Under the pieces are notes generated by a model. The model did not search any database. It saw only the letters and a list, made by a program, of their open reading frames with translations, and was not told the DNA's origin. DNA of 64,000 nt from Sinomicrobium kalidii (GTDB lineage Bacteria > Bacteroidota > Bacteroidia > Flavobacteriales > Flavobacteriaceae). Location: NCBI RefSeq assembly GCF_021183825.1, contig NZ_CP089211.1, positions 5,252,501-5,316,500 on the forward strand. The letters run 5' to 3'. A program made the position numbers and the translations under genes. Below, piece after piece: positions 36,842 to 52,242 of the stretch; position 1 is the first letter of the stretch, and the number at the start of each line of letters is the position of its first letter.

Positions 36842-36900
36842 TGTAATAAAATGGGTATTAAAAACCTAATTATCAAATTGTTAAGTTTTATATTTTTTTG

Positions 36901-36917
36901 TTAAGCATTGTAAAGCA
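36901..36917 (+). promoter_or_regulatory. 17-bp direct repeat upstream of leuA (copy 1)
   Basis: TTAAGCATTGTAAAGCA, found again exactly at 38214-38230 upstream of leuC. It is 79 bp before the leuA start. A shared operator or promoter-proximal element is the simplest explanation. A short Leu/Ile-rich reading frame (36851-36904) ends just before it, but no terminator follows. Confidence 0.5.
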
Positions 36918-43640: not shown

Positions 43641-44903
43641 TTATACTAAAAACTGGAACAAATCGGGTTTATTGTTCAGATAATCCCCGTAAAAGTGCCG
43701 GGTTTTCATTCGCTCTATCAAAGGTAACAAATCCTTTTCACTTTTGAGTTCAATCCCTACCACTGCAGGAGCGTCTTCCCGGCTGTGTTTTTTAGTATAC
43801 TGAAAATGTGTAATATCATCATTGGGCCCGAGTATTTCCGCCACAAATTCCTTCAGCGCCCCGGCACGTTGCGGAAACCGTACAATAAAATAGTGTTTGA
43901 GGTTGGCATACAGCAACGCCCGTTCCTTGATCTCTGCCGTACGGGTAATGTCATTATTACTTCCGCTGACCACGCAAACCACATTTTTCCCCCTGATCTC
44001 TTCCTCATACTGGTCGAGCGCAGAGATTGTAAGCGCCCCTGCAGGTTCTACCACGACAGCATCCTTATTGTACAAATCTAAAATGGTCTGGCAAACCTTA
44101 CCTTCGGGTACCGTTATCATATCGTGAAGAAATTGTTTACATATTTCAAAGGTTTTGTCGCCCACACGTTGTACTGACGCACCGTCTACAAATTTTTCTA
44201 TTTCGGTAAGTTCGGTATTCGCATTATTCCGGATGGACATGCTCATGGAAGGTGCTCCTTCGGGCTCCACCCCTATGATCTTGGTTTTTGAGGACAAAAC
44301 ACTGAAAATAGAAGAAACCCCGGAAGCAAGCCCTCCCCCGCCTACGGGAACAAAAAGATAGTCTATGGACATGTTGGCCTGTTCCAGGATTTCGAGTCCG
44401 ACCGTAGCCTGGCCTTCAATGACCTTTTCATCGTCGAAAGGGTGCACAAAAGTCTTGCCCAATCGTTTACATTCGATAAGCGCCGCTTTATTGGAGTCGT
44501 CAAAAGTATCTCCTTGAAGTACGATATCGATCTGGTCTTCCCCGAACATTTTCACCTGCCTTATCTTTTGCTTTGGTGTGGGAGCGGGCATATAAATGGT
44601 TCCTTTTATTCCCAGTTTATTGCAGGACATGGCCACACCCTGTGCATGGTTACCTGCACTGGCGCATACTATTCCCCTGGCTTTTTGATCTTCCGACAGG
44701 GAGCGGATCTTGTTATAAGCCCCCCTGATCTTGTATGATCGTACTACCTGTAAATCTTCCCTTTTCAAAAAGACATTGGCATCGAACTCCCTGGAATAAG
44801 TAAGGCTATGCGTCAAAGGAGTGTTGACTGCAACCCCCTTCAGGGTCTTTGCCGCTTCCTTTACCTGTTCCACTTTTGGTATGTATTTCGTTGTCACGTC
44901 CAT
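43641..44903 (-). CDS. ilvA: Threonine dehydratase (threonine ammonia-lyase), biosynthetic
   Basis: A 420-residue PLP enzyme converting threonine to 2-oxobutyrate for isoleucine synthesis. The PLP lysine is Lys58 in VVRSYKIRGAYNKIRSL; the phosphate loop is in FVPVGGGGLASGVSS. A single C-terminal ACT-like regulatory segment (about 330-420; YFIVRFPQRAGALKEFVAEI) is present, so isoleucine feedback is possible. Length is that of the short biosynthetic form common in Bacteroidota and Firmicutes. It is the last gene of the ilvD-B-N-C-methyltransferase-ilvA run, 63 bp after the methyltransferase, so the attenuator region upstream of ilvD may control it as well. Confidence 0.93.
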   Translation of the reverse strand: MDVTTKYIPKVEQVKEAAKTLKGVAVNTPLTHSLTYSREFDANVFLKREDLQVVRSYKIRGAYNKIRSLSEDQKARGIVCASAGNHAQGVAMSCNKLGIKGTIYMPAPTPKQKIRQVKMFGEDQIDIVLQGDTFDDSNKAALIECKRLGKTFVHPFDDEKVIEGQATVGLEILEQANMSIDYLFVPVGGGGLASGVSSIFSVLSSKTKIIGVEPEGAPSMSMSIRNNANTELTEIEKFVDGASVQRVGDKTFEICKQFLHDMITVPEGKVCQTILDLYNKDAVVVEPAGALTISALDQYEEEIRGKNVVCVVSGSNNDITRTAEIKERALLYANLKHYFIVRFPQRAGALKEFVAEILGPNDDITHFQYTKKHSREDAPAVVGIELKSEKDLLPLIERMKTRHFYGDYLNNKPDLFQFLV

Positions 44904-44966
44904 AAATCCTCAATATGTTTGTAGTTAAATAATTGCCTGTATTTTTCCGGACACAGGCAGGCCCGT

Positions 44967-45689
44967 TTATTTAATGGCTCCGAAGGCCGCAAAACAGCTG
45001 TTTTTGTGTAATATTTCCATTGAACCGAAGCCTGTTTTTTTCATCAGTTCGAGTTGAAAGTTTACCGAACGGGGCGTATCTTCTTTTTCTATGTATGCAA
45101 ACACTTTTTCCTGATAGTCCTTCCCTCCCATCTGTTCCAGGTACGTGCCGTATTCCCGCCAGAACATGGCATTTATTTCCTTTGCATCGTGTACGACAAG
45201 ATCGGATATCCAGAAGCTGCCTCCCGGTTTGAGCATCCTGTAAATATTTTTAAACACCTTTTCCCAGTCTTCATCTTCCCGTAAATGGTGCAGCACGGCG
45301 CCGGCCAGGACAATGTCAAAATATTCATCCGGGAAGTCTGCCGCGCGTATATCGCCGTGAAAAACATCGACCTTCCCCCTTGTGTTCATTTTTATACGGG
45401 CCTCGGCCCTCTCAAGCATCGGAAGCGACAAATCTACCAGCGTGCAGTTAAGGTCCGGGATCTTGGACAGCATTTTCAGCGTATAATTTCCCGCACCACA
45501 GCCTATATCAAGCAGATTTTTCGCATCTGAACTGACGCTCCGGGCCGCTTCGGTTATCCATTCCAGGGTAACAGGGGCATCTATGGTTGATTGTTGCCCG
45601 GTGTCCAGGTTGGAAAAACGCTCCACATCCCCGTCGAACCGCTGCCTTATCTCCTCGTTGGTGGATTTTTGTTTAAAATCGGTTTCCAT
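44967..45689 (-). CDS. Class I SAM-dependent methyltransferase within the ilv run
   Basis: A 240-residue Rossmann-fold methyltransferase. The SAM-binding motif is LLDIGCGAGNYTLKML near residue 65, with acidic ligand in CTLVDLSLPMLERAEAR, then VFHGDIRAADFPDEYFDIVLAGAVLHHL and a post-motif PGGSFWISDLVVHD. No membrane segment. The methyl acceptor is unknown. It lies between ilvC (161 bp upstream, with nested hairpins) and ilvA (63 bp downstream) on the same strand, so it is probably part of the ilv transcript, although it has no known role in branched-chain amino acid synthesis. Confidence 0.85.
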   Translation of the reverse strand: METDFKQKSTNEEIRQRFDGDVERFSNLDTGQQSTIDAPVTLEWITEAARSVSSDAKNLLDIGCGAGNYTLKMLSKIPDLNCTLVDLSLPMLERAEARIKMNTRGKVDVFHGDIRAADFPDEYFDIVLAGAVLHHLREDEDWEKVFKNIYRMLKPGGSFWISDLVVHDAKEINAMFWREYGTYLEQMGGKDYQEKVFAYIEKEDTPRSVNFQLELMKKTGFGSMEILHKNSCFAAFGAIK

Positions 45690-45710
45690 GGTTTATTGAC
45701 ATCTCCGTTA

Positions 45711-45806
45711 ATTGTCCGGTCCACATTGTTCAAAAGACCAACTCCGGTTAGTCTGCCCTCATGACAAACTAACCGGAATCAACCTTGTATAAGTCCCGGA
45801 CACAAT
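45711..45806 (-). repeat. Nested inverted repeats between ilvC and the methyltransferase gene
   Basis: Outer arms ATTGTCCGG (45711-45719) and CCGGACACAAT (45796-45806) enclose inner arms TCCGGTTAGT (45743-45752) and ACTAACCGGA (45768-45777), the latter a perfect 10-bp stem. No T-run follows on the minus strand, so this is not a standard terminator. It could act as an mRNA processing or stability element that separates ilvC from the distal genes. Confidence 0.6.
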
Positions 45807-45850
45807 CAGGCAATTTACATCCTGATCGTACAACACATGACAGTGCGGTC

Positions 45851-47320
45851 TTAAACGATCTTTTTCATCTCTGTCATGGAAGAACGCAGGAATGCCCCCA
45901 CTTTTTCCACAGGATGGTTCCTTATCTGATCGTTGACCTTAATGAGTTCCCGGTTATCTACAGCATTGCCGCTTCCGAACGATTTCCCGATAACATTGCT
46001 GTCAATTTTCTTCATGAAATCTGCCAGCAGCGGCTTACAGGCATGATCGAACAGGTAGCAACCGTACTCTGCCGTATCTGAGATCACACGGTTCATTTCA
46101 AAAAGTTTTTTACGTGCAATGGTATTGGCAATGAGCGGTGTTTCGTGCAGGGATTCGTAATAGGCCGATTCTGCAATGATCCCGGCTTCGGTCATGGTTT
46201 CGAAAGCCAGTTCCACACCCGATTTCACAAAAGCGACCATCAGCACGGCATTGTCAAAATATTCCTGCTCTGAAATAGGCTCGGAAGTGATTTCCGTTTT
46301 CTCAAAAGCAGTTTCTCCCGTAGCTTTTCGCCACGACAGCAGGTTTTTGTCATCATTGGCCCAGTCTTCCATCATCGTCTTGGAGAAATGGCCGCTCATA
46401 ATATCGTCCATATGCTTACAGAATAAAGGCTGCATGATTTCTTTAAGCTCTTCCGACAAACGGAACGCTTCGATCTTGGCCGGATTGGACAGTCTGTCCA
46501 TCATGTTGGTAATACCGCCGTGTTTCAGGGCTTCTGTTATGGTCTCCCAGCCGTATTGCACCAGTTTGGCTGCATAGCCCGGTTCAATGCCTTTTTCCAC
46601 CATTTTGTCAAAGCTCAGGATCGATCCCGTTTGCAGCAATCCGCACAGGATGGTCTGTTCTCCCATCAAATCCGATTTTACCTCGGCCACAAAGGAGGAA
46701 CGCAGTACGCCTGCCCGGTGACCTCCCGTAGCAGCAGCGTAGGCCTTCGCCTGTTCCAGTCCTTCTCCTTTAGGATCATTTTCCGGGTGAACGGCAATCA
46801 GCGTAGGTACCCCGAAACCTCTTTTATATTCTTCCCGAACCTCGGAACCGGGACATTTAGGCGCCACCATGATCACGGTAATGTCTTTACGGATCTGCAT
46901 GCCTTCTTCCACAATGTTAAATCCGTGGGAGTATGACAGGGTCGATCCTTCTTTCATATGCGGCATTACCGTACTGATCACCGATGAGTGCTGCTTGTCC
47001 GGTGTAAGGTTACACACCATATCGGCAGTGGGGATGAGCTCCTCATAAGTACCTACCTTAAACCCGTTTTCCGTTGCATTCTTATAGGACGGTCTTTGTT
47101 CCTTGATGGCAGACTCTCTCAGGGCATAAGAGATATCCAGTCCGGAATCCCTCATGTTCAGTCCCTGGTTCAGTCCCTGGGCACCACATCCTACGATTAC
47201 TATTTTCTTTCCTAACAGTTTTTTCACACCTTCACTGAACTCAGACCTGTCCATGAATTCACATACTCCTAATTGTTGTAATTGAAGCCTCAACGGAAGC
47301 GTGTTAAAGTAATTTGCCAT
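45851..47320 (-). CDS. ilvC: Ketol-acid reductoisomerase, class II (long form)
   Basis: A 489-residue NADPH-dependent enzyme converting acetolactate and acetohydroxybutyrate to dihydroxy acids. The N-terminus [20 protein letters not shown] is nearly that of enterobacterial IlvC. The nucleotide-binding loop is [21 protein letters not shown] with ALRESAI following. Length close to 490 residues marks the class II type with a duplicated knotted helical domain. It lies 92 bp after ilvN and ahead of the methyltransferase and ilvA. No frame damage is seen. Confidence 0.97.
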
Positions 47321-47412
47321 TTTATTGATCTGTTTTTGATTTTTAATTTTAATTCATCTGTATTTTTGCGCCATACGATCGTGCGACTTTACGTGGAAGA
47401 ATCCACAGGTAG

Positions 47413-47937
47413 CTACGCATTCTGAAATTCTTTCAGCAAAGCGGATATGTTCATCTCCGTCTTGGACACGGCTATCCGCCCGGAGCGCACGAACTGCATA
47501 ATACCAAAAGGTGCCAGTTCATCGTAGAGGGCATCGGTTTCGTGACGCCTTCCCGTTTTTTCTATAACAAAAAACTCCCGGGCTACAGTGACGATATTGG
47601 CATTGCTCTGCTTAATGATGTTCTGTATCTGTCTTTCGTCAAACAAAAGGCTGGATTTTATTTTGAACAGGGCGGTTTCCTGATAGATGGTCTCTTCATC
47701 CGTATGGTAATAGGCCTTAATCACTTCGATCTGTTTTTCTATCTGACCTACGATCTTCCGCACCTGGTCTTCGTCCATGTCGGCAACAATGACAAACCGG
47801 CTGACATTTTCTATTTCACACTCTGAAACAGTAAGACTCTCTATATTGATGTGCCGCTTTAAAAATATGGCTGATATCCGGTTCAGCAGCCCTATGTTGT
47901 TTTCCGAATATACGGAAACAGTATATGATTCGTTCAT
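47413..47937 (-). CDS. ilvN: Acetolactate synthase small (regulatory) subunit
   Basis: A 174-residue ACT-domain protein; ATG 47937 (MNESYTVSVYSENNIGLLNRISAIFLKRHINIESLTV) is preferred, and an in-frame ATG at 47958 would add seven residues. The ACT domain spans about residues 5-80, with the valine-binding pattern NNIGLLNRISAIFLKR. The C-terminal part (about 85-174) is the IlvN/IlvH second domain (ARTEFFVIEKTGRR-like: AREFFVIEKTGRRHETDAL). It activates IlvB and confers valine inhibition. It follows ilvB by 94 bp in the ilv run. Confidence 0.94.
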   Translation of the reverse strand: MNESYTVSVYSENNIGLLNRISAIFLKRHINIESLTVSECEIENVSRFVIVADMDEDQVRKIVGQIEKQIEVIKAYYHTDEETIYQETALFKIKSSLLFDERQIQNIIKQSNANIVTVAREFFVIEKTGRRHETDALYDELAPFGIMQFVRSGRIAVSKTEMNISALLKEFQNA

Positions 47938-48031
47938 TTTAGTTTCTTGTTTTGCCACTAATACACTAATGTTCTTTGTCTTTTACACTTGGTGTCGGAG
48001 CTTTCTTTTAATACATTATCTCATTATCAAA

Positions 48032-49765
48032 TTATTCCAGCCTGCAATCCGACACAGAAGCCCCCGACGGTACCATAGGGAATACATTATCTTCTTTCTC
48101 CACACAAACTTCAAGGAAGTAGGCTTCTTCCGATGCTATCATTTCATTGACGGCTTCATCCAGTTCTTCGCGTTTGGTCACTCTTCTCGCCGGAATATGG
48201 TATCCTTTGGCAATGGTGATGAAGTCCGGGTTAATAAGTTCGGTGGAAGCATACCGTTTATCAAAGAACAGCTGCTGCCATTGACGTACCATACCGAGAA
48301 AATCGTTATTGAGCACCACGATCTTCACCGGAACACGGGTCTGGAATATGGTACCGAGTTCCTGTATGGTCATCTGGTAACCGCCATCCCCGATAATGGC
48401 CACGACTTCCCTTTTGGGGGCTCCCATTTTGGCTCCTATGGCCGCGGGAAGCGCATACCCCATGGTTCCCAGTCCCCCGGAAGTAATATTACTCTTGGTC
48501 CGGTTAAATTTCGCATAACGGCAGGCGATCATCTGGTGTTGCCCCACATCCGAAACCACGATGGCGTCTCCGCCGGTACGTTTGTTTATCTTTTCGATCA
48601 CCTCTCCCATGGTCAGTTTTTCCTTTTCCGGGAAAAGGTCGTTTTTGATTACCTTATCATATTCGATCGCCTGTTTATCCTTAAACTCCCGGTGCCAGGC
48701 CTCGTGTTTGTTATCATTTATAAGGGGAAGCAAATGCTCCAGTGTTTCCCTTACATCCCCGAGCACGGCAACATCGGTTTTTACGTTCTTGTCGATCTCC
48801 GCAGGGTCAATCTCAAAATGCACTACCCTGGCCTGTTTGGCATAGGTACTGAGATCGCCGGTAACCCTGTCGTCAAAACGCATTCCCAGGGCGATCAGCA
48901 CATCGCATTCGTTGGTGAGAAGATTGGGCGCATAATTACCGTGCATCCCTACCATTCCCGTATGAAGCGGATGTTCTGTAGGCAAAGCGGAAAGTCCCAG
49001 CACAGTACTCGCCGAAGGGATCCCCGATTTTTCGATCAGCGCTTTCAATTCGGTTTCGGCCTTTCCAAGGATAATCCCCTGGCCAAATATGATAAACGGC
49101 TTTTTGGCACTGTTGATGAGTGCCGCAGCTTCTTCTATACGTGCGGGATTGATCTCCGGTTTCGGTTTATAGCTTCGTATCGCGGTACATTTTTTATAGG
49201 AAAAATCAAATTCTTCGAACTGAGCGTTTTTGGTAATATCTATAAGCACCGGACCGGGACGGCCGGAGCGCGCAATGTAAAATGCCTTGGCAAGGGCCGT
49301 AGGGATTTCCGACGCCCTGGTCACCTGATAGCTCCATTTGGTCACGGGAGTGGAAATACCGATAATATCGGTTTCCTGGAACGCGTCCGTCCCCAGCAAA
49401 TGACGTGCTACCTGACCGGTTATGCACACCATCGGCGTAGAATCGATCTGGGCATCGGCGATCCCGGTAATGAGATTGGTTGCCCCCGGACCGGAAGTAG
49501 CTATGGCAACCCCCACTTTCCCGGTGGCCCTGGCATATCCCTGTGCCGCGTGTGCCGCCCCCTGTTCGTGACGGGTGAGCACATGGTGCAGTTTATCCCG
49601 AAACTTATACAATTCGTCATAAACAGGCATAATGGCTCCTCCGGGATAACCGTAAATAAGGTCTGCGCCTTCCTCCAGAAGACACCGGATCACGGCTTCC
49701 GCCCCGCTAACCTTCATCTTTGCCGTAGTTGCCGTTTCTACTAATCTTTCTTTTAATGTTTCCAT
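48032..49765 (-). CDS. ilvB: Acetolactate synthase large (catalytic) subunit
   Basis: A 577-residue ThDP enzyme making acetolactate from pyruvate and acetohydroxybutyrate from pyruvate plus 2-oxobutyrate. ATG 49765 (METLKERLVETATTAKMKVS) is preferred; the frame is open upstream to 49852, but that extension is encoded by an intergenic palindrome. The catalytic glutamate lies in HVLTRHEQGAAHAAQGYAR, the FAD-binding region in the middle, and the ThDP motif is VAIIGDGGYQMTIQELGTI with NNDFLGMVRQWQQLFFDKRY. It sits between ilvD and ilvN. Confidence 0.97.
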   Translation of the reverse strand: METLKERLVETATTAKMKVSGAEAVIRCLLEEGADLIYGYPGGAIMPVYDELYKFRDKLHHVLTRHEQGAAHAAQGYARATGKVGVAIATSGPGATNLITGIADAQIDSTPMVCITGQVARHLLGTDAFQETDIIGISTPVTKWSYQVTRASEIPTALAKAFYIARSGRPGPVLIDITKNAQFEEFDFSYKKCTAIRSYKPKPEINPARIEEAAALINSAKKPFIIFGQGIILGKAETELKALIEKSGIPSASTVLGLSALPTEHPLHTGMVGMHGNYAPNLLTNECDVLIALGMRFDDRVTGDLSTYAKQARVVHFEIDPAEIDKNVKTDVAVLGDVRETLEHLLPLINDNKHEAWHREFKDKQAIEYDKVIKNDLFPEKEKLTMGEVIEKINKRTGGDAIVVSDVGQHQMIACRYAKFNRTKSNITSGGLGTMGYALPAAIGAKMGAPKREVVAIIGDGGYQMTIQELGTIFQTRVPVKIVVLNNDFLGMVRQWQQLFFDKRYASTELINPDFITIAKGYHIPARRVTKREELDEAVNEMIASEEAYFLEVCVEKEDNVFPMVPSGASVSDCRLE

Positions 49766-49830
49766 ATTAATGTTTGTTGTAACGCCAAATCTGCACGATC
49801 GCATGTTCACGATAATAAATATCCGCGGGA

Positions 49831-49846
49831 ACGCACACCCGTGCGT
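49831..49846. repeat. CACGGCCGTG palindrome, degenerate copy 2
   Basis: ACGCAC (49831-49836) and GTGCGT (49841-49846) flank ACCC, the core being a decayed form of the palindromes at 39715 and 55072. It lies in the 93-bp gap between ilvD and ilvB. Confidence 0.6.
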
Positions 49847-49858
49847 CTTCACAGGTAA

Positions 49859-51532
49859 TTAAAACTCGTCCGTAACACATCCCCGGGAGGCAGACGAAAC
49901 TGTTTTGGCGTATTTGTACAATATTCCTTTTTTTACTTTTAACGGCGGTTGTTGCCATTTGGCTTTCCGCTCTTTGAGTTCTTCTTCCGAAAGATTGACA
50001 TCTATAGTATTTTTTTCTGCGTCTATCGTGATAATATCCCCGTCTTCCACCAGGGCTATATTACCACCTTCCTGAGCTTCGGGAGCAACGTGCCCCACTA
50101 CAAAACCGTGAGACCCTCCGGAAAACCGTCCATCGGTGATAAGCGCCACATCTTTGCCAAGCCCCGCTCCCATAATGGCCGACGTAGGTTTGAGCATTTC
50201 AGGCATTCCCGGGCCTCCTTTGGGACCTTCGTAGCGGATAATCACCACATCTCCTTTCTTCACTTTGCCGTCCTTTATACCGGTATTGGCTTCATCTCCC
50301 CCGTTAAACACCTTAGCCTTACCGGTAAAATTCAACCCTTCTTTCCCGGTGATCTTGGCAACCGCCCCTTCTTTGGCGAGATTACCGTAAAGAATACGGA
50401 TATGCCCCGTTTCCTTGATCGGCCGGTCCAGCGTCCTGAGAATATCCTGTCCTTCTTCCAGGTCGGGAAGCCCGGCAAGGTTTTCGGCCAGTGTTTTCCC
50501 GGTTACAGTAAGGCAATCGCCGTGAAGCATTCCTTCTTTCAGCATATATTTCAAAACCGCAGGAACCCCGCCTATCTTGTGCAGGTCCTCCATAACATAC
50601 TTTCCGCTGGGCTTCAGGTTGGCCAGTAAAGGTGTATTATCACTTATCCGTTTAAAGTCGTCCAATGTAAAATCTACTTCCGCTGCATTGGCTATGGCCA
50701 TAAAATGCAGTACGGCATTCGTAGACCCTCCCAGGACCGTTACTGTGCGAAAGGCGTTCTCCAGCGACTTCCGGGTTACTATATCTCTGGGTTTAATATC
50801 GTTCTCCAACAGGTTCCGCAACACTTTCCCCGCCGCAATACAGTCTTCCTTTTTACCGTCGTTAACCGCCGGGATAGAGGAATTATAAGGCAATGACATT
50901 CCCATGGCCTCTATTGCAGATGCCATGGTATTGGCGGTGTACATACCACCACATGCGCCCGCACCAGGACATGCTTTATGAATTATACTTTTGTAATCTT
51001 CTTCACTGATGCTTCCGGCAACCTTACTCCCCCAGGCTTCGAAAGCAGAAATAATGTCGAGTTTTTCACCTTTGTGACATCCGGGGGAAATAGTTCCTCC
51101 ATAAACCAATACGGAAGGGCGATTCAGGCGTAACAGCGCCATTAATGCCCCGGGCATGTTCTTATCACATCCTACCACGGTGACCGCTCCGTCATAACTC
51201 ATCCCCTGGACGACCGTTTCAATAGAGTCGGCTATGAGATCCCTGGAAGGAAGTGAATAACGCATTCCCTGTGTTCCGTTGGAGATACCGTCACTTATTC
51301 CGATGGTGTTAAAAATAAGTCCTACAAGGTCGGCTTCTTCCGTACCTTTTTTTACATACTCGGATAAACCGTTAAGATGCATGTTACAAGGATTTCCTTC
51401 ATAACCTGTGCTCGCAATGCCAATCAGCGGTTTCTTCAAATCGTCATCGCTCAGGCCTATGGCGTGTAACATTGCCTGCGCGGCAGGTAGTGTAGGATCT
51501 TGGGTAACTTGTTTACTATACGTGTTTAACAT
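49859..51532 (-). CDS. ilvD: Dihydroxy-acid dehydratase
   Basis: A 557-residue Fe-S dehydratase making the 2-oxo acid precursors of valine and isoleucine. Cluster ligands are visible in [21 protein letters not shown] (first Cys), [22 protein letters not shown] and [21 protein letters not shown]; the C-terminal [19 protein letters not shown] is also diagnostic. It is the first gene of the ilv run. Its 5' region, 51533-52000, contains two consecutive attenuators with Ile/Val-rich leader peptides, so its transcription is very probably controlled by charged tRNA-Ile/Val levels. The last attenuator is 187 bp before the start codon. Confidence 0.97.
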
Positions 51533-51718
51533 TATTTAATAAAAATTTATTTTCCCTGTTATACTTTACGATCAGCTAAATTATTTGATATAAAATCTCC
51601 AGTTTTTTAACATTATCCCTGTTTTTTAAACTCAACACCCACTGTTGGTATTTACGATACTGATTTACAGAATTTTATATCACTTCTTCTTATCATATCC
51701 AAAATGAAAGAAAAGTCG
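51533..51718 (-). other. 5' untranslated region between the second attenuator and ilvD
   Basis: This 186-bp AT-rich segment follows the second terminator and precedes the ilvD start. It has no further Ile/Val-rich reading frame and no strong hairpin. A separate promoter here is not excluded, but no TTG/TAnnTTTG pair was found. Confidence 0.5.
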
Positions 51719-51764
51719 AAAAACAAAGGGCCCGTATCTTCCTTCCGGTTGATACAGGCCCTTT
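51719..51764 (-). terminator. Attenuator terminator 2 (ilvD-proximal)
   Basis: On the minus strand AAAGGGCCTGTATC (51751-51764) pairs with GATACGGGCCCTTT (51725-51738): 14 bp with one G-U, a 12-base loop, then GTTTTT. It lies 23 bp after the second leader-peptide stop and 187 bp before ilvD. Confidence 0.9.
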
Positions 51765-51786
51765 TTAGCGGCATATCATTACTGTA

Positions 51787-51843
51787 TCAACTCCGGAGGA
51801 AGTGAATAATGACAATACCGATAATGACTATTCTTTGTATCAT
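51787..51843 (-). CDS. ilv leader peptide 2 (ilvD-proximal attenuator)
   Basis: An 18-codon reading frame, MIQRIVIIGIVIIHFLRS, from ATG 51841-51843 to TGA 51787-51789. Ten of 18 residues are Ile (7), Val (2) or Leu (1), far above chance. The end of the frame (GTTGATAC, 51784-51791 on the minus strand) is perfectly complementary to GTATCAAC in the downstream terminator (51748-51755), and pairing extends to CTTCC/GGAAG with small bulges. Ribosomes stalled on the Ile/Val codons would leave this segment free to form the antiterminator; ribosomes reaching the stop codon would cover it and allow termination. Regulatory role inferred from this architecture. Confidence 0.82.
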   Translation of the reverse strand: MIQRIVIIGIVIIHFLRS

Positions 51844-51870
51844 TTTTACAGGTCGTTTTCTTAGAATCAA

Positions 51871-51907
51871 AATAAAAAGCCTTCCCTGGGGATCAAGGGA
51901 AGGCTTT
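51871..51907 (-). terminator. Attenuator terminator 1 (ilvD-distal)
   Basis: On the minus strand AAAGCCTTCCCT (51896-51907) pairs perfectly with AGGGAAGGCTTT (51876-51887) across an 8-base loop, followed by TTATT after the A/T end of the stem. It lies 32 bp after the first leader-peptide stop and 28 bp before the start of the second leader peptide. Confidence 0.9.
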
Positions 51908-51939
51908 GTGCAAAATATTGTTTGGCATACCATCCCAGG

Positions 51940-51999
51940 TCAAGGTGAAATAATCACCACGACAATGACAGCAATGATATGAATGAAATTCCTTTTCAT
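51940..51999 (-). CDS. ilv leader peptide 1 (ilvD-distal attenuator)
   Basis: A 19-codon reading frame, MKRNFIHIIAVIVVVIISP, from ATG 51997-51999 to TGA 51940-51942. Ten of 19 residues are Ile (6) or Val (4), with a run IVVVII immediately before the end. CCTGGGAT just past the stop codon (51932-51939) can pair with ATCCCCAGG in the loop and 3' arm of terminator 1 (51885-51893, one bulged C), offering an antiterminator. The charged N-terminus followed by hydrophobic residues could be mistaken for a small membrane peptide, but position and the adjacent terminator favour a leader peptide. Confidence 0.82.
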   Translation of the reverse strand: MKRNFIHIIAVIVVVIISP

Positions 52000-52242
52000 T
52001 TCTCGTACAATATTAATACGTTTTTTTCGGAAATAAAACACCTCCTCATAATTTTTACAGGATTCGTAAAAAAATACACGGACACCTTCGTAATTTCCGG
52101 TTATTCATCAAATACATTACGACTATTGCAGAACGTATTTCCATGAGCATTGGCAAACGGATATTTAATGAAGTAACGCAATGGGTTCAGAGGGGTTAAA
52201 ACAAAACCTTCCTCCATATCATCTGCAGGAAGGCGGAGTTCT

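Follow-up and report, generated by a model that had tools for sequence, protein, structure and literature searches.

Two leader-peptide attenuators predicted in series upstream of ilvD in Sinomicrobium and other Flavobacteriaceae

In textbook amino-acid attenuation each operon has one leader peptide. Enteric bacteria carry leader-peptide attenuators of the ilv, thr and trp type, E. coli ilvL among them. Attenuation was reportedly traced by Vitreschak and colleagues in 2004 in Proteobacteria and in other phyla, Bacteroidetes included. Leader-peptide attenuation in Bacteroidota is an already known kind of control. The Bacteroid-trp RNA (Rfam RF01692) is named in a table of PMC2864571, and the transcriptome of Flavobacterium psychrophilum has given clues to leader peptides before amino-acid operons (PMC9723704). 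As far as the accessible text of each paper goes, Salmonella mgtCBR has two independent leader ORFs in one leader mRNA, with ATP and proline as their signals (PMC3641672); mefA/msrD has two ribosome-mediated attenuators described as a "double lock" (PMC10314930); and in pseudo-cooperative tandem riboswitches, TPP for example, one signal acts on two complete switches in series, which are expected to be more digital (PMC9481103). A literature search at the level of titles and abstract openings, mostly of papers outside subscription journals, brought up no amino-acid biosynthetic operon with leader-peptide attenuators in tandem.

We analyzed a 64-kb stretch of Sinomicrobium kalidii DNA (the window), for which an earlier note had claimed two leader/terminator units in series ahead of ilvD on the minus strand. 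Both units were found there, coordinates included. The features are as follows, in the direction of transcription; the antiterminator strands, the P1 box and the P2-like element are additions to the earlier note.

52008..52015, minus strand: putative P1 -7 box TAATATTG, a 5/6 match to TAnnTTTG, with its end 8 nt from the leader 1 ATG
51940..51999, minus strand: leader A ORF MKRNFIHIIAVIVVVIISP (leader 1, distal unit A), with Ile/Val-rich counterparts in relatives
51944..51958, minus strand: leader A end hairpin GGTGA-TTATT-TCACC, 83.5% of cells paired
51930..51939, minus strand: putative unit A antiterminator strand CCTGGGATGG, immediately 3' of the stop codon
51876..51907, minus strand: terminator A hairpin AAAGCCTTCCC...GGGAAGGCTTT, with a T-rich tail to ~51868
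51787..51843, minus strand: leader B ORF MIQRIVIIGIVIIHFLRS (leader 2, proximal unit B)
51790..51803, minus strand: leader B end hairpin ACTTC-CTCC-GGAGT, 89.7% paired
51782..51791, minus strand: antiterminator strand of unit B GTTGATACAG, with the TGA stop codon inside, pairing 10/10 with 51748-51757
51725..51764, minus strand: terminator B hairpin AAAGGGCCTGTATC...GATACGGGCCCTTT, followed by GTTTTTC
51576..51611, minus strand: P2-like element, GTTAAA (51606-51611) and TAATTTAG (51576-51583), the latter 5/6 of the -7 box
49859..51532, minus strand: ilvD, which opens the ilvD-B-N-C-methyltransferase-ilvA run (43641-51532)

The downstream genes ilvD, ilvB, ilvN, ilvC and ilvA matched NCBIfam models above their cut-offs. 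Between ilvC and ilvA lies a methyltransferase-like gene, for which no NCBIfam model exceeds its cut-off. The upstream neighbour of the attenuator region is a protein-L-isoaspartate methyltransferase gene, which may have its own terminator at ~52206-52234. Among named IlvD proteins the closest comes from Sinomicrobium oceani (90% identity). Both units have the layout of ribosome-mediated attenuators: an Ile/Val-rich ORF that ends in a hairpin, strand 2 (the antiterminator strand, at the stop codon) and a terminator. Strand 2 is predicted to pair with strand 3 (the terminator 5' arm) in unit B and is a candidate for such pairing in unit A. As the earlier note stated, Ile, Val and Leu make up more than half of each leader (10/19 residues in leader 1 and 10/18 in leader 2, by I/V/L count). 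Its terminator stems of 12-14 bp were right for terminator A (13 pairs, -18.9 kcal/mol) and too short for terminator B, which has 16 pairs (-25.9 kcal/mol). A loose leader-plus-terminator rule gave 15 candidates on both strands of the 64-kb window, and only the two units of ilvD contain a ten-residue stretch with at least 8 I/V/L (9 and 8). Folding of the 281-nt leader gave -90.3 kcal/mol vs. -62.8 (sd 4.7) for shuffled sequences, and 0/200 shuffles were as good.

The reading we prefer, with a probability of about 0.75, is that of two ribosome-mediated transcription attenuators in series behind one promoter. It builds on the predicted ORFs, hairpins, terminators, unit B antiterminator, order of units and single promoter box, all drawn from the sequence and its comparison among genomes, and it supposes that the ORFs are translated, that ribosomes stall on them and that termination takes place in the cell. 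With ample Ile and Val, the ribosome would reach the leader stop codon and mask the antiterminator strand, and the terminator would form. During a shortage of Ile- or Val-tRNA it would stall upstream, the antiterminator strand would pair with the terminator 5' arm and polymerase would continue. Full ilv expression from P1 would require read-through at both A and B, so that the two probabilities would multiply. The last Ile codon ends 9 nt upstream of strand 2 in unit A and 13 nt upstream in unit B. Given a downstream ribosome reach of up to 12 nt (accessible text of PMC4833913), a ribosome stalled at this codon would probably overlap the beginning of strand 2 in unit A and stop short of it in unit B.

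The ilvD leader resembles the enteric ilv, thr and trp attenuators and the Rfam Thr_leader (RF00506) in its residue-rich short ORFs, alternative hairpins and intrinsic terminators before biosynthetic genes; it differs from the enteric attenuators in having two complete serial units and a very short predicted 5' UTR before leader A. Thr_leader scored 27.9 (unit A) and 16.7 bits, below the gathering threshold of 55, and the Rfam scan of the ilvD leader returned no family above threshold. Bacteroid-trp is likewise a peptide-leader RNA of Bacteroidota, but it concerns Trp and has one leader candidate only. F. psychrophilum belongs to the same family of bacteria, although no tandem arrangement is described in the accessible text of that paper. 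Two leader ORFs in one leader mRNA are also found in mgtCBR, whose signals differ and which, as described in the accessible text, is without intrinsic-terminator-like stem-loops; the ilvD leaders are alike in make-up and have two intrinsic terminators, and signals that differ from leader to leader find no parallel in their common Ile/Val composition. The mefA/msrD operon also has two attenuators, but its stalling is drug-induced and the second attenuator governs only msrD, according to the same partial source. Tandem TPP riboswitches share with the ilvD leader serial switches for the same signal, each deciding on termination; their sensor, in the text accessible, is an aptamer and not a translating ribosome. 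Judged from its sequence, the ilvD leader too would have two complete same-signal units behind one promoter, as in the pseudo-cooperative class.

We surveyed 251 ilvD upstream regions, that of the window plus 80, 60 and 110 from three genome samples. The 80 regions were the best of 579 genome-contig matches, the 60 were hand-picked from 281 phylum-sample genomes having a match, and the 110 came from 233 matching family-sample genomes (the 30 best and 80 down the ranking, few skipped). Removal of exact duplicates left 237 distinct regions, among which 10 near-duplicate pairs remain. Under one rule, 118 of these regions have no unit, 93 have one and 26 have two (at least one in 119), counts that lean to close IlvD relatives and do not equal phylum frequencies. 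Since 118 regions do without a unit and 93 with only one, doubling is dispensable. Controls, alignments, permutations, the tree and composition counts were made with a 246-region set, which includes 9 exact duplicates shifted by one base. The same rule found one unit in 3/246 regions on the reverse strand and in 1/246 after shuffling, and two units in none of either control.

Units were typed by the terminator arm, which is CCTTCC-like in type A and CCTGTATC-like in type B. The two-unit genomes comprise 17 with A then B (the window, Sinomicrobium oceani, Robertkochia, Zhouia, Tenacibaculum agarivorans and Bizionia arctica among them), eight Aquimarina with A then A-like, and one other (L113). 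The order A before B is invariant in 17/17 two-type genomes. The 93 single-unit regions divide into 52 A, 37 B and 4 untyped.

The alignment of unit B used 42 of 43 references (17 A+B genomes plus 26 of 39 B-only genomes, minus L144, for which a wrong ORF had been picked; its B leader is MKVFKNIYTVIIINPPQG). The alignment of unit A used 26 of 37 references (17 A+B and 20 of 53 A-only genomes) together with 8/8 Aquimarina distal units. The 11 references omitted (L151, L075, L084, L150 and seven leaders with the stop codon past strand 2) make the unit A alignment lean to regular cases. In seven single type A leaders (L028, L051, L061, L094, L162, L174 and L207) the stop codon lies past the antiterminator strand, so this strand would be translated and the timing must differ.

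The loss of reading frames and Ile/Val codons in relatives, named in the earlier note as a refutation of its reading, was not seen: frames and codons are retained. The hairpins and terminators of both units covary, with double-change cells above all 500 shuffles each, a measure by which related sequences can exceed the shuffle control even without structure. The leader A end hairpin has 20 such cells vs. 7.6 in shuffles, terminator A (92% paired across genomes) 53 vs. 16.4, the leader B end hairpin 52 vs. 18.6, and terminator B (99.8% paired) 28 vs. 8.0, with 0/500 shuffles as high in each case. Codon-position differences (positions 1, 2 and 3) in the A leaders of A+B genomes were 79, 24 and 109 (20 pairs), the pattern expected if the frame is translated and Ile and Val replace each other. 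A milder bias was seen for all A leaders (729, 534, 947; 207 pairs) and all B leaders (177, 173, 233; 49 pairs). Aquimarina leaders gave 35, 34, 50 (distal) and 29, 40, 52 (proximal), and the B leaders of A+B genomes 23, 15, 27 in only 5 usable pairs.

The unit B antiterminator (GTTGATACAG x CTGTATCAAC) is 88.1% paired in 42 genomes vs. 25-38% when slid. Its core is made of six of the ten pairs, five present in 42/42 genomes and one in 41/42; the outer pairs are variable (12/29 and 21/40). Covariation was slight (9 double-change cells vs. 5.8; 44/500 shuffles as high). In the window it has 10 bp with a shuffle p of 0.005, and the B segment without the 3' arm adopts the antiterminator fold at -21.2 kcal/mol, with 1/200 shuffles as good. 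The ungapped antiterminator test gave p<0.05 in 31/56 B units. Own-vs.-swapped strand pairing was not significant among 17 B units (132/2000) because the motif is shared among units. We concluded that the predicted unit B antiterminator is strong and exclusive with the terminator.

The unit A antiterminator of the window is imperfect. The fold of its segment was matched by 81/200 shuffles, its ungapped duplex gave p 0.13, and the ungapped test reached p<0.05 in 21/87 A units. The window sequence folded alone gives no support and the antiterminator appears weak in it, whereas the cross-genome comparison does argue for it: strand 2 of unit A pairs better with its own strand 3 than with those of others (38 chosen units; 0/2000 permutations). 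In Aquimarina, strand 2 (AAGGGAT), strand 3 (ATCCCTT) and strand 4 (AAGGGAT) match one another; all three depart from the GGAAGG/CCTTCC form and complementarity is retained. These data bear on the reading in which the proximal unit B alone works as a switch, while A, its leader decaying, is a partial terminator that acts for the most part constitutively; we give this reading a small probability. It would account for the weak antiterminator of the window, shared by most A units, and for the 37/237 regions with B alone, but not for the retention of A alone in 52/237 regions. The covariation of the leader A end hairpin, the third-position bias of the A frame, the joint change of Aquimarina strands 2, 3 and 4 and the own-pairing permutation also speak against it.

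The -7 box has the consensus TAnnTTTG at -12 to -5, according to the accessible text of PMC9723704. With the P1 box at these positions, leader A would start ~4 nt from the 5' end (the implied 5' UTR) and be nearly leaderless. In 23/26 two-unit genomes the first leader has a box matching at least 5/6 of TAnnTTTG at 3-11 nt before its ATG, and in 2/26 the second leader has one; the corresponding counts are 63/93 for single leaders and 60/366 for control ATGs. One promoter box thus appears to stand ahead of both units, with none before the second leader in the window. Alone among the two-unit genomes, Aquimarina sp. MMG016 (L054) has a perfect -7 box directly preceding its second leader, which follows a gap of 102 nt, and perhaps carries two separate promoters.

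The P2-like element lies past both attenuators and 51 nt ahead of ilvD, and its box could bypass both. The interval from the last terminator to ilvD contains a perfect TAnnTTTG in 49/92 unit-bearing Flavobacteriaceae regions vs. 19.1 expected, and on the opposite strand in 2 vs. 18.7 expected; 44/53 of the perfect boxes are at 41-80 nt before ilvD, and an upstream GTTAAA is common to 47 boxes (in the set before final duplicate removal). Such enrichment and placement on the sense strand would fit the reading that the attenuators are real and have little effect, ilvD being transcribed mainly from P2. We regard this as improbable, to about the same degree as a switch formed by B only. The window box (TAATTTAG) is imperfect, and a perfect one is rarer in two-unit genomes, being found in only 7/25, though this rarity may reflect kinship only. 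P2 itself may be regulated, and both attenuators are retained.

The earlier note had also suggested AND-like control, which is not supported, as the make-up of the two leaders is nearly identical in 17 pairs (I.34, V.14, L.06 vs. I.38, V.12, L.06). With near-equal composition, both leaders should respond to the same supply. A true AND gate, in which the leaders sense different signals such as Ile vs. Val or Leu, was rejected on this ground and is very unlikely. Codon choice does differ, Val codons being nearly all GTC in B (31/35) vs. 20/46 in A, and ATA accounting for 18/109 Ile codons in B vs. 9/109 in A; the overall I/V/L fractions are near-equal nonetheless, and a GTG of leader A sits in the A end hairpin. 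A wider range fits better than different signals. A steeper response, the other effect proposed for two units, is possible, with the larger effect on dynamic range in toy arithmetic with assumed values. For illustration, with single-unit read-through set at 0.05 to 0.8, the range would grow from 16-fold with one unit to 256-fold with two, and the 90-10% span would narrow (80-fold with one, 44-fold with two). As for small ORFs and hairpins arising in AT-rich intergenic DNA, the 13 other window candidates under the loose rule recall this origin, but the reverse-strand and shuffle controls, covariation and conservation contradict it, and the doubled leader-ORF/terminator arrangement before ilvD is not due to chance.

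Doubling was not seen upstream of trpE, hisG, two homoserine-dehydrogenase genes and leuA of the same genome. Bacteroid-trp was found before trpE (L259:739-864) with 59.3 bits (gathering 49) and a single leader candidate, MQIILNNAWWWSNLRQNVVS. Upstream of hisG (L258:553-671), a His-containing small ORF (MNRIVLHHYHFYTCTQAR) is followed by a strong terminator, likely a single his attenuator. The script returned no leader candidate before the two homoserine-dehydrogenase genes; upstream of one of them lies a SAM riboswitch above threshold (L257:1031-1133). Before leuA (36997, plus strand, 155-bp gap), a small Ile/Leu-rich ORF, MGIKNLIIKLLSFIFFC, was read by eye at window positions 36851-36904; the window scan gave no unit and detected no terminator upstream of leuA, and the ORF may be chance in AT-rich DNA.

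The state of the leader differs inside genera, with no unit in Aquimarina L058 and L068 and in Tenacibaculum L009, L014, L032 and L053. On a quick tree of IlvD only (106 rows, many weak forks, 13 of the 17 A+B genomes, L144 hand-labelled B), the A+B label requires 10 changes, at least 5 of them forced by well-supported branches, vs. a mean of 12.5 for shuffled labels (7/500 as low). An old A+B state with repeated loss would fit this tree and the fixed order, a gene tree with weak forks being no proof. Recent duplication as the origin in the lineage of the window was rejected, as A and B differ in conserved terminators and antiterminators; a duplicate-like unit pair is found only in Aquimarina. 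L113 (G353, another family of distant Bacteroidota) has two Ile/Leu/Val leaders with terminators close to ilvD, the second unit left untyped by the rule, and its doubling would be either independent or very old. We tentatively suggest, at less than even odds, that A-then-B is the ancestral ilv control of Flavobacteriaceae, with scattered retention, repeated reduction to A or B, a rebuilding as A+A in Aquimarina, and multiplied read-through beside a bypassing P2.

Two serial attenuators for the same amino acids across several genera, with the states none, A, B, A+B and A+A among relatives, amount to a natural experiment. The varying states address the question whether a second attenuator adds lower leakiness, a wider range or a steeper response, and, since related species carry A-only, B-only or A+B leaders, reporters would allow a direct comparison of one unit with two. 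If the ancestral two-stage reading is true, the ilv leader of these bacteria would parallel pseudo-cooperative tandem riboswitches, with a ribosome as the reader.
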